A DNA stretch of 64,000 nt from Aquabacterium sp. (GTDB lineage Bacteria; Pseudomonadota; Gammaproteobacteria; Burkholderiales; Burkholderiaceae_C), in NCBI RefSeq assembly GCF_029946005.1, contig NZ_JAQSDR010000012.1, forward strand, positions 62,001 through 126,000, in the 5' to 3' direction. Both the position numbers and the translations under genes were made by a program. The notes beneath the pieces are model-generated. The model was not told the origin of the DNA. It ran no database searches and was given only the letters and a program-made list of their open reading frames with translations. Position 1 is the stretch's first letter, and each line of letters starts with the position of its first letter. Positions 48,262 to 63,081 of this stretch are shown here, in pieces.

Positions 48262-49551
48262 TCACGACATGATGACCTGCAGGCTGCGCTCATAAAGCGC
48301 CGTCAGGCCTTCAAACACCTCCAGCAGCACTTCGCTGGCCCGGCTGATGGCCAGGCGGCTTTCCGACTTGTCCAGAAAGCGCAGGCCTGAGAGCAGCCGG
48401 GTCCACTCCTCGCGCGCAGCCTTGAGGGCATCGCGGATTTCGGGGCTGGAAAGCGGAGCCAGCTCCAGTTCCAGCAAAGCGGCTTCGAATTCGGATTTCA
48501 GCTGTGCGAAACCCTCCCGGCGGGCGCTGTCGTCCAGCATCTCGGCCAGCAAGGCGTCTTTGGCCAGGCGCTGCGCCAGCATGCGTTGGCGGCCGCACAG
48601 GTTGACGACGTTCAAGGCGCGCCGGCCCGAGGCGGTTTCCAGTTCACTGACCAGCGCCTCGGCCTGCATGAGCAGGGCATCGGCCTTGTCGTCGGCCTGT
48701 TTCAGCACGGCCGCCGATTTGCGTTGCGCCAGGGTGGCTTGCAAGACCGACCATGCGGCTTGCGCTCTGGCCACGGCTTCGGGCAAGGCCTCGCCCTGAG
48801 CACCCAGTTGCGGCAGGGCCGATAAAAAATCCAGGTTGGCTTGGGCGCGTTGCTCGGAGTCCTCCTGCAGTTTGCGGGCGCGGTGCGCGTCCACCCCGGC
48901 CAGGCGCTGTGCCGCCAGTTTGACCAGGCGCTGCGACAGCATGCGCAACTGGCCCGCGCGGTTCAGGGCCTCGGCCCAGGCCGCGGCTTCAATCACCGAG
49001 CGGGACACCTCGCCAATCTTCAACTTGGCGTGCATGGCGGCGCCACGCAGCAGCTTGAAGGCCTCGTCTTCATCCAGCCCACGGGCCTGCGCCAGCACGC
49101 CTTTGGCGCGGTCCACATACTTGCGGTCGCTCAGTTGGCCTTGCACCTGACCCAAGGCCTGTGCCAGGGCGGCATGGCGTTGCCAGCGCAGGCCATCCAG
49201 GGCCAGGCCGGTGGCCAAGGCCGCCGCGGACAGGCCGGTGTCGGGCCACCAGCCGCTCAGGCCCAGGTCCAGCAGTTGGGTCAACTCGTCCTGGCTGGGG
49301 TTGGCGCCGACCCAGCTCACCGCGCAGGGGGGCGAGCCGTTCCAGGCGCCGATCGCTTCGACCACCACCGAGGCAACGCCCAAAAGCACGACCTGATTCG
49401 GTGCGTGTGCCTTGAATTGGTGCATCAATTGGCGGCAATCACCGCCGTCCACGACCGTCCAGGCGGGCCCGAGTGAGCCTTGTCGAAGCAGGGCCTGGGT
49501 CGGTGTCGGGGCGGCGCCTGGCGATGACATCACCAGCAAGGTGATGCTCAT
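48262..49551 (-). CDS. ANTAR-domain regulator with two C-terminal PilJ/NarX-like P-box motifs (putative nitrate-responsive antiterminator)
   Basis: ANTAR-like region DRKYVDRAKGVLAQARGLDEDEAFKLLRGAAMHAKLKIGEVSRSVIEAA; P-box-like NRAGQLRMLSQRLVKLAAQ and NLCGRQRMLAQRLAKDALL. Start trimmed from 49689. Confidence 0.8.
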   Translation of the reverse strand: MSITLLVMSSPGAAPTPTQALLRQGSLGPAWTVVDGGDCRQLMHQFKAHAPNQVVLLGVASVVVEAIGAWNGSPPCAVSWVGANPSQDELTQLLDLGLSGWWPDTGLSAAALATGLALDGLRWQRHAALAQALGQVQGQLSDRKYVDRAKGVLAQARGLDEDEAFKLLRGAAMHAKLKIGEVSRSVIEAAAWAEALNRAGQLRMLSQRLVKLAAQRLAGVDAHRARKLQEDSEQRAQANLDFLSALPQLGAQGEALPEAVARAQAAWSVLQATLAQRKSAAVLKQADDKADALLMQAEALVSELETASGRRALNVVNLCGRQRMLAQRLAKDALLAEMLDDSARREGFAQLKSEFEAALLELELAPLSSPEIRDALKAAREEWTRLLSGLRFLDKSESRLAISRASEVLLEVFEGLTALYERSLQVIMS

Positions 49552-49663
49552 GGGCGGCGCTTTCGCAGTGAAAACCACATGGTTGGTGTTCCGTGAAGGA
49601 TCTGAAAAGTCTGACATTCTGGGGTGCCGTGGCACCTTGGCGCGCATATTGCATGGATTTGGT

Positions 49664-49685
49664 CGTGGTGCAACGAAGCACCGCG
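49664..49685 (+). promoter_or_regulatory. Candidate ANTAR-target RNA hairpin (hexaloop AACGAA)
   Basis: CGTGGTGC-AACGAA-GCACCGCG: 8-bp stem (one G-U) and 6-nt loop with A1 and G4, in the narK leader. Confidence 0.5.
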
Positions 49686-49732
49686 CCAAAGCTTGAAATC
49701 TGCCCCAGCGGCAACCTCCTCAAGCATCCATC

Positions 49733-49768
49733 GCCCGGGCCAAATCTGGTCAGCGGGCTATTCCATTT
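49733..49768 (+). terminator. Candidate leader terminator/attenuator upstream of narK
   Basis: GCCCG-GGCCA-AATC-TGGTC-(AG)-CGGGC followed by TATTCCATTTTC; imperfect U tract. Confidence 0.4.
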
Positions 49769-49841
49769 TCTCCTGCCTTTCCAGGTGCACTTCAAAGCGT
49801 CTGGTGAGGCGTCGTTCGCTCATTTTTCACCGCACATTGCC

Positions 49842-51113
49842 ATGTCCAATTTCAGAACATTTTTAAGAAGCGGCCACAGCCCGACCTTGTTCGCGGCCTT
49901 CCTGTACTTCTCGTTCTCGTGTTGCATCTGGGTGCTCAACGGAGCCATGGCGCCGTTCATCAGCGAGACCTTCAACCTGACGCCGGCCCAGAAGGGGCTG
50001 ATGCTGTCGATCCCCATCCTCGCAGGGGCGCTCATGCGTTTCCCTCTGGGCATCCTGTCGCAGTACATCGGGCGCAAGAACGCCACGCTGGTCGAGATGG
50101 GCATGATTGCCTTGGCCATGCTGTACGGCGTGTTCATGGTGCACGAGTTCTCCGACCTGTTGAAGATGGGCGTGCTGCTGGGCATCGCCGGTGCGAGCTT
50201 TGGCGTGGCCTTGTCGCTGGGTTCGGGCTGGTTCCCGCCCCAGCACAAGGGCCTGGCCATGGGCCTGGTCGGTGCGGGCAATGTGGGCACGGCGGTGTCG
50301 GTGCTGGTGGCGCCTCCCCTGGCGCAATGGCTGGGTTGGCAGGCCGTGTATGGCGTGGCTGCGGTCGCCATCTTGCTGCCCATGATCGTGATGGTGCTGT
50401 TCGCGAAAGAGCCGCCCGATGTGGACAAGCACGCGACCTTTCGCGAACACATCGCCTGCCTGTTTGAAAAAGATGGCTGGGTCTTCAGCCTGATTTATGG
50501 CGTGACCTTTGGCGGGTTCATCGGCCTGATCACCTTCCTGCCCACGTATTACTACGACCAGTTCGGCGTCAGCAAGGTGCAAGCGGGCCAGTTGACGATG
50601 CTGGCGGCCTTCATGGGGGCTTTCGTGCGCGTTCTGGGTGGTTGGATCTCGGACCACTGGGGTGGCTTGAACACCTTGACCATCGTGCTGGCGGTCGTGG
50701 CCGTGACCTTGACCTTGGTGGGCCTGTCCTCTGAGTCCTTGATCCTCACCACGCTGTTGATGATCACGTGCTTCGCGGCGTTGGGCGCGGGCAATGGCGC
50801 CTTGTTCCAACTGGTGCCTTTGCGCTGGCCTTTGAGCACGGCCGTGGCCGGTTCGATGATCGGTGAGATTGGTGCCTTGGGCGGTGGTCTGGTGCCCAAC
50901 GCGATGGGCCTGTCCAAGCAGTACCTGGGCACCTACCTGTGGGGCTTCGTGCTGTTCTCGGTGTTGGCCCTGATCATGCTGGTGGTGATGCGCATCATGC
51001 AGGTTCGCTGGACGCGCACCTGGGCCGAGAAAGGCGGGCGCGCCCGTGTTCATGCTCAGCCGACCAGCCCGGCCCAGCAGCAAGCGCCTGTCGGCTTGCG
51101 CAGCGCGGACTGA
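49842..51113 (+). CDS. MFS nitrate/nitrite transporter (NarK family)
   Basis: CCIWVLNGAMAPFISETFNLTPAQKGLMLSIPILAGALMRFPLGILSQYIGRKN; GAGNVGTAVSVLVAPPLAQWLGWQAVYG. Start trimmed from 49593. Confidence 0.9.
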   Translation: MSNFRTFLRSGHSPTLFAAFLYFSFSCCIWVLNGAMAPFISETFNLTPAQKGLMLSIPILAGALMRFPLGILSQYIGRKNATLVEMGMIALAMLYGVFMVHEFSDLLKMGVLLGIAGASFGVALSLGSGWFPPQHKGLAMGLVGAGNVGTAVSVLVAPPLAQWLGWQAVYGVAAVAILLPMIVMVLFAKEPPDVDKHATFREHIACLFEKDGWVFSLIYGVTFGGFIGLITFLPTYYYDQFGVSKVQAGQLTMLAAFMGAFVRVLGGWISDHWGGLNTLTIVLAVVAVTLTLVGLSSESLILTTLLMITCFAALGAGNGALFQLVPLRWPLSTAVAGSMIGEIGALGGGLVPNAMGLSKQYLGTYLWGFVLFSVLALIMLVVMRIMQVRWTRTWAEKGGRARVHAQPTSPAQQQAPVGLRSAD

Positions 51114-51137: not shown

Positions 51138-52391
51138 ATGAAAAAGATGAAGTTGGTGATGGTGGGCAACGGCATGGCCGGCGTCCGCACACTGGAAGAG
51201 TTGCTGAAAATCGCCCCGGATCTGTACGAGATCACGGTGTTCGGCGCTGAACCGCATCCCAACTACAACCGCATCATGCTGTCGCCCGTGCTGGCGGGTG
51301 AGCAGACCGTGGACGAGATCATCCTCAACTCATTGGACTGGTATGCCGGGCATGGCATCACGCTGCACCTGAACAAGAAGGTCACCAGCATTGACCGCAA
51401 GAAGCGCCTGGTGACGGCCGAAGACGGCACGCAGGCCGAGTACGACCGCCTGCTGATCGCCACGGGCTCCAACCCCTTCATCCTGCCTGTGCCCGGCAAA
51501 GACTTGAAGGGCGTGATCGCCTACCGCGACATCGCCGACACGAACACGATGATCGAGACGGCCACGACCCACCAGCACGCGGTGGTGATTGGCGGTGGCC
51601 TGTTGGGCCTGGAAGCGGCCAACGGCCTGATGTTGCGCGGCATGAGTGTGACCGTGGTGCACATCGCGCCCTGGTTGATGGAGCGGCAACTGGACGATGT
51701 GGCCGCCAAGCTGCTGCAAAAGTCGCTGGAAGACCGCGGTCTGAAATTCATGATCGGCGCACAGACGCAAGAGCTGGTGGGCAACGCCGAGGGGCGCGTG
51801 CAATCGGTCAGGTTCAAGGATGGCACCGAGGTGCTGGCCGACCTGGTGGTGATGGCGGCCGGCGTGCGGCCCAACACCGGCCTGGCCGAGAAGATCGGCC
51901 TGCATTGCAATCGCGGCATCGTGGTCACCGACACCATGCAAACGGTGACCGATCCGCGTGTGTACTCGGTGGGTGAATGCGCGGCACACCGGGGCATCGC
52001 TTACGGTCTGGTGGCGCCGTTGTTCGACCAGGGCAAGGTGTGCGCCAACCACCTGGCCATGCACGGCATCGGGCGCTATCTGGGCTCGCAGGTGTCCACC
52101 AAGCTCAAGGTCACGGGCATTGACCTGTTCTCGGCGGGCGATTTCATGGGCGGCGAGGGCACGGAAGAAATCCTGCTGTCGGACCCGTTTGGTGGTGTCT
52201 ACAAGAAGCTGGTGCTGCGGGACAACAAGCTAATCGGCGCTTGCCTGTACGGCGACACGGTGGATGGCAGCTACTACTTCAAGCTCATCCGCGAAGGGCA
52301 ATGCGTGGCCGACGTGCGCGACTGGTTGATGTTTGGCGAGGCCAGCGTGGACCTCCATGAAAACCGCCAGGCCACCGCCATGGCGGCGTGA
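51138..52391 (+). CDS. NAD(P)/FAD-dependent oxidoreductase, NirB N-terminal-like (nitrite reductase family)
   Basis: KLVMVGNGMAGVRTLEELLKIAPDLYEITVFGAEPHPNYNRIMLSPVLAGE; VVIGGGLLGLEAANGL. 417 aa, no siroheme/Fe-S domain. Confidence 0.9.
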   Translation: MKKMKLVMVGNGMAGVRTLEELLKIAPDLYEITVFGAEPHPNYNRIMLSPVLAGEQTVDEIILNSLDWYAGHGITLHLNKKVTSIDRKKRLVTAEDGTQAEYDRLLIATGSNPFILPVPGKDLKGVIAYRDIADTNTMIETATTHQHAVVIGGGLLGLEAANGLMLRGMSVTVVHIAPWLMERQLDDVAAKLLQKSLEDRGLKFMIGAQTQELVGNAEGRVQSVRFKDGTEVLADLVVMAAGVRPNTGLAEKIGLHCNRGIVVTDTMQTVTDPRVYSVGECAAHRGIAYGLVAPLFDQGKVCANHLAMHGIGRYLGSQVSTKLKVTGIDLFSAGDFMGGEGTEEILLSDPFGGVYKKLVLRDNKLIGACLYGDTVDGSYYFKLIREGQCVADVRDWLMFGEASVDLHENRQATAMAA

Positions 52392-62842: not shown

Positions 62843-62958
62843 ATCTCCCGGGCTTTTGTCCCGCCGTGGAGCCTGCGTTGGTGAATGTGCCAACTCAGGC
62901 CGATGGCTCTCGGACCAGACATTTGGTTTGCACCAAACCGGAACCCTAGCCACCCTTT
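62843..62958 (-). promoter_or_regulatory. Guanidine-I (ykkC-type) riboswitch
   Basis: Minus strand GTGGCTAGGGTTCCGGTTTGGTGCAAACCAAATGTCTGGTCCGAGAGCCATCGGCCTGAGTTGGCACATTCACCAACGCAGGCTCCACGGCGGGACAAAAGCCCGGGAGA: conserved CTAGGGTTCCG, CTGGTCCGAGAG and ACGGCGGGACAAAAGCCCGGGAGA blocks, upstream of the carboxylase operon. Confidence 0.95.
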
Positions 62959-63081
62959 CGAGTCAACGATCGACGACATCGTTTCTCTCGCAACTTGGGT
63001 ATGCAAGCTTGATGCCAGACCATTTGCACTGCTTTGGTGAAGCTTGCACAATCGCCAGTCACCATGTGAAGGTCCCCAGCC

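Follow-up and report, generated by a model that had tools for sequence, protein, structure and literature searches.

The leader of narK, a nitrate/nitrite transporter gene in Aquabacterium sp., is probably a dual-control leader, in which a sigma54 promoter is joined to a hairpin (P1) that would be bound by a divergently encoded PilJ-ANTAR protein, giving read-through into narK and a truncated nirB. Its likely function is to answer to nitrogen limitation through sigma54 and to nitrate through the nitrate-bound ANTAR protein, which would permit read-through. Unlike the two-hairpin ANTAR switches studied so far, this leader and many related ones have a single predicted protein-binding hairpin. 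The window is the whole stretch of DNA analysed, 64,000 nt (GCF_029946005.1, NZ_JAQSDR010000012.1, positions 62,001-126,000, forward strand); the segment studied is 49552-49841 (Table 1).

Table 1. Features of the narK leader and adjoining genes, in window positions
Feature	Position	Strand	Description
Divergent regulator	48265..49551	-	429 aa, start at 49551; pseudo-receiver ~1-120, ANTAR 135-187, PilJ region; PF03861 + PF13675
Sigma54 promoter TTGGCGCGCATATTGCA	49637..49653	+	12/13 consensus letters; predicted +1 at 49664
P1, ANTAR hexaloop hairpin	49664..49685	+	8 bp, loop AACGAA (A1, G4); first base is the predicted +1
Middle hairpin GCUUGA...UCAAGC	49691..49725	+	inner UGCC/GGCA, variable 5-nt loop, not a hexaloop; from folding
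H3, attenuator-like hairpin without a good U-tract	49733..49758	+	from folding and invariance in the genus
H4, strong hairpin before narK	49774..49811	+	-19.6 kcal/mol; from folding and genus alignment
narK/nasA-type nitrate/nitrite MFS transporter	49842..51113	+	ATG at 49842; PF07690; TIGR00886 E 1e-70, under that model's curated cut-off
Copy of NirB N-terminal half (FAD/NADH part)	51138..52391	+	417 aa; second gene of the putative unit

The start of narK (M-SNF-RTFL) is kept among relatives. The truncated nirB product is 93% identical over 404 aa to a full-length, 810-aa NirB encoded on another contig (L124:10346-12778, -) as a member of a nirB-PilJ-nasA cluster, so that the assimilation operon seems to be split, with a duplicated and truncated nirB. 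Between nirB and nasA that cluster encodes a stand-alone PilJ protein of 272 aa (L124:9476-10294, -), which bears two P-box-like motifs and seems to have an export signal.

The sigma54 box has its -24 GG at 49639-49640 and its -12 GC at 49651-49652, spaced by exactly 10 nt. It is identical across all genus members having the P1 leader and resembles the sigma54 boxes at 68 loci of relatives; the genome encodes two sigma54 genes. A promoter scan found no sigma70 promoter in the leader region, and inspection by eye of the upstream DNA found no clear NtrC dyad. P1 lies directly downstream of the box, and the RNA is therefore predicted to begin with P1. This makes a start downstream of 49685, which the preliminary description had named as fatal to its reading of the leader, unlikely. 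It also disposes of two further structures raised there: the tetraloop hairpin GGTGC-CGTG-GCACC (49623-49636), a dyad that decays in the closest relatives, and an alternative TTGCA...TGCAA pairing whose TTGCA arm (49649-49653) is the -12 element itself. The tetraloop hairpin and the TTGCA arm lie upstream of the predicted +1 and are thus promoter-region DNA rather than leader RNA. The -24/-12 elements are those of sigma54/NtrC nitrogen-control promoters, which differ in not being joined to an RNA element beginning at +1. Upstream of the box many relatives (e.g. L012, L015 and L022) share a conserved GCATAGRGCA; read on the regulator strand it includes TATGC, which may be the -10 element of a promoter for the regulator itself.

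P1, CGUGGUGC-AACGAA-GCACCGCG, has a folding energy of -13.4 kcal/mol (z -3.75), reached by none of 200 shuffles, and the fold of segment 49664-49785 beats all 200 of its own (z -3.6). Relatives of the divergent protein were drawn from whole genomes and genome contigs, and at 68 distinct loci where the best sigma54 box scored at least 10/13 we searched for an [A/G]NNGNN hexaloop whose stem had 5 bp or more and whose loop lay 31-37 nt past the -24 GG. Such a hexaloop was present at 61 of the 68, ahead of genes of narK or nirB type that diverge from a gene of the same ANTAR protein family, and the same search at other offsets succeeded in 1.2%; of the seven misses, most show a hexaloop that is somewhat shifted or mismatched. 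Because this search selects on loop letters, it was rerun without any loop-letter requirement. Among the 38 strict hexaloops then found at the register, unselected on loop, G4 occurs in all 38 and A1 in 36, with a closing C-G or U-G and a second pair G-C in every case. In a further group of leaders the rerun reads a loop of 4 nt, since GACGAU-type loops allow position 1 to pair with position 6.

An alignment of 42 P1 sequences has 95.6% paired cells and a covariation of 0.554, against 0.241 when shuffled; in five of seven pairs both bases change, and the pairing collapses when the partner is slid. These sequences were chosen for pairing, and the independent weight lies with the loop statistics and the register. 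A combined promoter and P1 model searched against the whole genome ranked the window site best (E 2e-8, the site being in the training set) and left it as the sole convincing match, the next being at E 0.06. An order-wide covariance search gave mostly weak matches, and Rfam 15 gave none for the leader up to E 5. The sigma54-to-hexaloop register offers a specific signature by which more ANTAR regulons can be sought.

The loop agrees with published ANTAR rules (PMC3369931, PMC7496416, PMC8934654), a 6-nt loop with A1 and G4 on a closing C:G pair, being AACGAA on C-G here and of this kind at ~60 loci; P1 also has the single hexaloop with G4 to which the minimal ANTAR site was reduced by Walshe et al. 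2022 (PMC8934654). P1 is almost certainly an ANTAR target. The preliminary description had proposed as much for the narK leader, from the hexaloop and the divergent ANTAR gene; fold, shuffles and register bear out the hairpin, relatives keep it with compensatory changes in the same register, and covariation, loop identity and the protein tree described below add good support for its identity. Judged by sequence, the window leader has every testable feature of an ANTAR-target leader except a second hexaloop.

The ANTAR domain reported earlier for the divergent gene is confirmed (PF03861, E 7e-17), and PilJ (PF13675, E 6e-16) matches in two stretches; the regulator start codon is conserved within the genus. 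Profile matches of the protein family extend to EutV and Rv1626 over receiver plus ANTAR (E ~1e-25), to the PilJ domain of the nitrate chemoreceptor McpN (E 2e-7) and to NarQ (E 2e-3). Both PilJ halves carry N-x-x-G-x-x-R-M, within the P-box-like motifs NRAGQLRMLSQR (197-208) and NLCGRQRMLAQR (317-328); the P-box pattern N-x-A-G-x-x-R-M is present, and relatives all keep G200, R203 and M204, while at least 90% of them keep N197. The P-box is the nitrate-binding motif of NarQ, NarX and McpN (PMC8199190), and we infer that the PilJ region binds nitrate or nitrite. On these domain and motif matches the regulator is, as far as sequence can tell, a nitrate-type one-component ANTAR protein with a PilJ sensor. 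It is not of the NasR type, in which a NIT domain (PF08376) is fused to ANTAR; other parts of the genome encode a true NIT-ANTAR protein and a NasT-like one.

No second hexaloop was found in the window leader, even with 3-bp stems. The middle hairpin was considered as a degenerate second hexaloop (P2) and rejected: its stems are kept in the genus while its 5-nt loop varies freely. Of 62 leaders, 17 clearly have a second hexaloop, placed 27-35 nt after P1, and several more have an imperfect one; in the remainder, the window's included, searching with stems of at least 5 bp gave none beyond two weak matches at chance level. The single good hexaloop noted in the preliminary description thus turns out to be a property of a whole clade. 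In the tree of the ANTAR proteins, a single clade with full support holds the two-hexaloop leaders (24 of its 26 rows), leaders with a single hexaloop and an intrinsic terminator form another (the T clade, support 99/92), and the window genus groups with Variovorax, also single-hexaloop (support 90/71). Leader type changes four times on this tree, against 26 with shuffled labels, an informative agreement since the labels were taken from the leaders and not from the proteins. One protein family thus has both leader types, cleanly split by clade, before the same genes and behind the same kind of sigma54 promoter: a natural experiment on whether one hexaloop can control elongation. The predicted combination of a PilJ-ANTAR regulator, a P1 fixed at the sigma54 +1 and a single hexaloop across a clade is what is distinctive here.

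Leaders of the other types have features of their own. The linker in the two-hexaloop clade exceeds the 5-12 nt of eut and usually holds a small hairpin. Several dual-hexaloop leaders (L015, L020, L021, L022, L054, L064 and L188) have a conserved CAUGUGCCUCC-like stretch right after P2, complementary to GGAG...CAUG near a start codon, that of narK in L021 and of short ORFs in the others, which suggests Shine-Dalgarno sequestration or a leader peptide. Variovorax-type leaders (L006, L040-L046, L048, L174-L176 and relatives) have GGUGA(R)G just after P1; this can pair with the 3' arm of P1 (CACC) or else with CACCCC further downstream, forming a possible switch which the window genus lacks.

Downstream of P1, the hairpin that the preliminary description called terminator-like is real, but its reading as a terminator is not borne out. 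H3 (GCCCGGGCCAAAUCUGGUCAGCGGGC, -15.1 kcal/mol) begins 48 nt beyond P1 and has the G+C stem of an intrinsic terminator, but its tail, UAUUCCAUUUUC, lacks a proper U-tract, and a terminator scan of 49400-49900 found nothing. H3 lies at +70 to +95 (one leader has it at +71 to +96) and belongs to a 32-nt block that all genus leaders compared share without change, while nearby loops vary; by position and conservation it is the best candidate for an attenuator. H4 is retained through base changes in some genus members and replaced by a shorter hairpin in two. In each of the eight T-clade leaders P1 is followed, at 27-91 nt and ahead of narK or nirB, by a clear and conserved intrinsic terminator, with only scattered 3-bp matches to a second hexaloop in between. 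These terminators favour attenuation, while the missing U-tract in the window keeps alternatives in mRNA stability, translation or Rho alive.

In the mechanism that we consider most probable, nitrogen limitation would drive the sigma54 promoter, presumably through NtrC, and the RNA would start at 49664 or within a base or two, making P1 the first structure to leave the polymerase. The PilJ-ANTAR protein would sense nitrate or nitrite by its PilJ region, as its P-box motifs and its similarity to McpN and NarQ suggest, and once bound to ligand would bind P1, to which loop identity and co-evolution point. The outcome would be positive: transcription would pass a downstream attenuator, putatively H3, into narK and the truncated nirB. 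Because there is one hexaloop, with no P2 overlapping the attenuator, the protein would have to act at a distance, by touching the polymerase or by blocking folding or Rho, and not by exclusion between P2 and a terminator.

Each known system shares part of this arrangement. NasR of Klebsiella oxytoca is likewise a one-component nitrate sensor with an ANTAR output, adjoining a nitrate-assimilation unit, and the nasF leader likewise has a hexaloop with A1 and G4 on a C:G closing pair. NasR differs in sensing through NIT, where the window regulator has PilJ behind a pseudo-receiver, and its RNA has P1, P2 and a proven intrinsic terminator, against one hexaloop and no U-tract here. EutV (REC-ANTAR) of Enterococcus faecalis eut shares the hexaloop recognition rules and a receiver-like N-terminus; the window regulator, unlike EutV, reads VVLLGV where the phospho-acceptor aspartate is expected, and EutV requires a pair of hexaloops separated by 5-12 nt, of which P2 overlaps the terminator. 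NasS-NasT also places nitrate assimilation under nitrate-responsive ANTAR control, at Paracoccus denitrificans nasA, where the first leader hairpin is essential, but senses nitrate through a separate protein, NasS (PMC5424462).

In the known form of ANTAR antitermination there are two hexaloops, and the terminator is excluded by the second (PMC3369931). EutV can bind one hexaloop, but antitermination, which needs two closely spaced, was lost when the second was moved 20 nt further away (PMC8934654), and NasR has a ~12-fold lower affinity for one hairpin than for two (PMC7496416). By the known mechanism a lone hexaloop is therefore not expected to suffice, and single-hexaloop leaders would have either another outcome (stability, translation or Rho) or a different control of elongation. 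Walshe et al. 2022 (PMC8934654) called for bioinformatics on the role of single hexaloops. We offer only tentatively, as a proposal more doubtful than not, that in this family of nitrate-assimilation leaders one hexaloop at +1 controls a non-overlapping attenuator 27-91 nt downstream without P2. If true, this would be a previously undescribed, distance-independent ANTAR mechanism, in which the protein might, for instance, travel with the elongating polymerase or modify it.

The strongest competitor to read-through control, though rather unlikely, is that P1, bound or unbound, acts post-transcriptionally, through 5'-end control of mRNA stability or, with the downstream structures, through narK translation, and that no termination step exists. 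A hairpin at the 5' end can protect mRNA, and P1 begins at the predicted +1; H3 lacks a U-tract, the window narK has no Shine-Dalgarno sequence visible in its sequence, and the sister dual-hexaloop clade has the start-codon complementarity noted above. The conserved A1 and G4 nevertheless show protein recognition beyond a mere protective hairpin, the T clade has its clear terminators, and the characterised nitrate ANTAR systems work through antitermination.

An improbable reading makes the leader a dual-hexaloop target of the classical kind, with a second hexaloop that overlaps H3 and is cryptic through an odd loop size or a mismatched stem. The invariant block around H3 does contain CC-AUCGCCC-GGG, whose 7-nt loop has A1 and G4, and some dual-clade leaders (L018, L021 and L112) have an imperfect P2. 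As a P2, this 7-nt loop was rejected: at -0.4 kcal/mol it is worse than most shuffles, and its stem is not conserved, with 2 bp in L039. Moreover, four of five genus leaders examined have no [A/G]NNGNN hexaloop even on 3 bp, the fifth, L039, has one weak, non-homologous candidate, and the absence is essentially the same across the Variovorax clade.

By eye, two other leaders in the genome, each adjoining an ANTAR gene, have a sigma54-like box and a hexaloop about as far apart as in the narK leader. The nrtABC (nrtA) leader (L035:8690-8960, -), next to the NasT-like gene, has a sigma54 box, CTGGCACAGCGCTTGCA, a hexaloop, CGAAATC-AACGGC-GATTTCG, near +1, a second one, AATGAA, inside a TTGAACA/TGTTCAA stem, and then a terminator-like hairpin with the end GCGCCTTTTTT. 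The nirC leader (L036:7230-7390, +), next to the NIT-ANTAR gene, has a sigma54-like box, a P1, GTCAAGCT-AATGGC-GGTTTGAC, and a P2, GGAT-GACGGC-GTCC, that overlaps a strong terminator; its resemblance to a classical NasR-type two-hexaloop leader suggests that the classical form is also present in this genome. As the genome encodes both proteins, each adjoining its own sigma54-plus-hexaloop leader, and ANTAR domains recognise similar loops, one of them might read P1 instead of, or besides, the PilJ-ANTAR protein. This has a very small chance of being right, given that P1 leaders are divergent to the PilJ-ANTAR gene at ~60 loci and that their type tracks its protein tree. The idea of a DNA operator, or of a dyad arisen by chance, which the place of the inverted repeat just downstream of a sigma54 promoter could suggest, is hardly credible in view of the repeat's G-U pairs, loop identity, compensatory changes and strict register.

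The nirB-PilJ-nasA cluster, on contig 8, was considered as a further target and set aside, having a sigma54-like box and no hexaloop. Elsewhere in the window, a guanidine-I riboswitch was identified with Rfam at 62843-62960 (-), scoring 91.5 bits.
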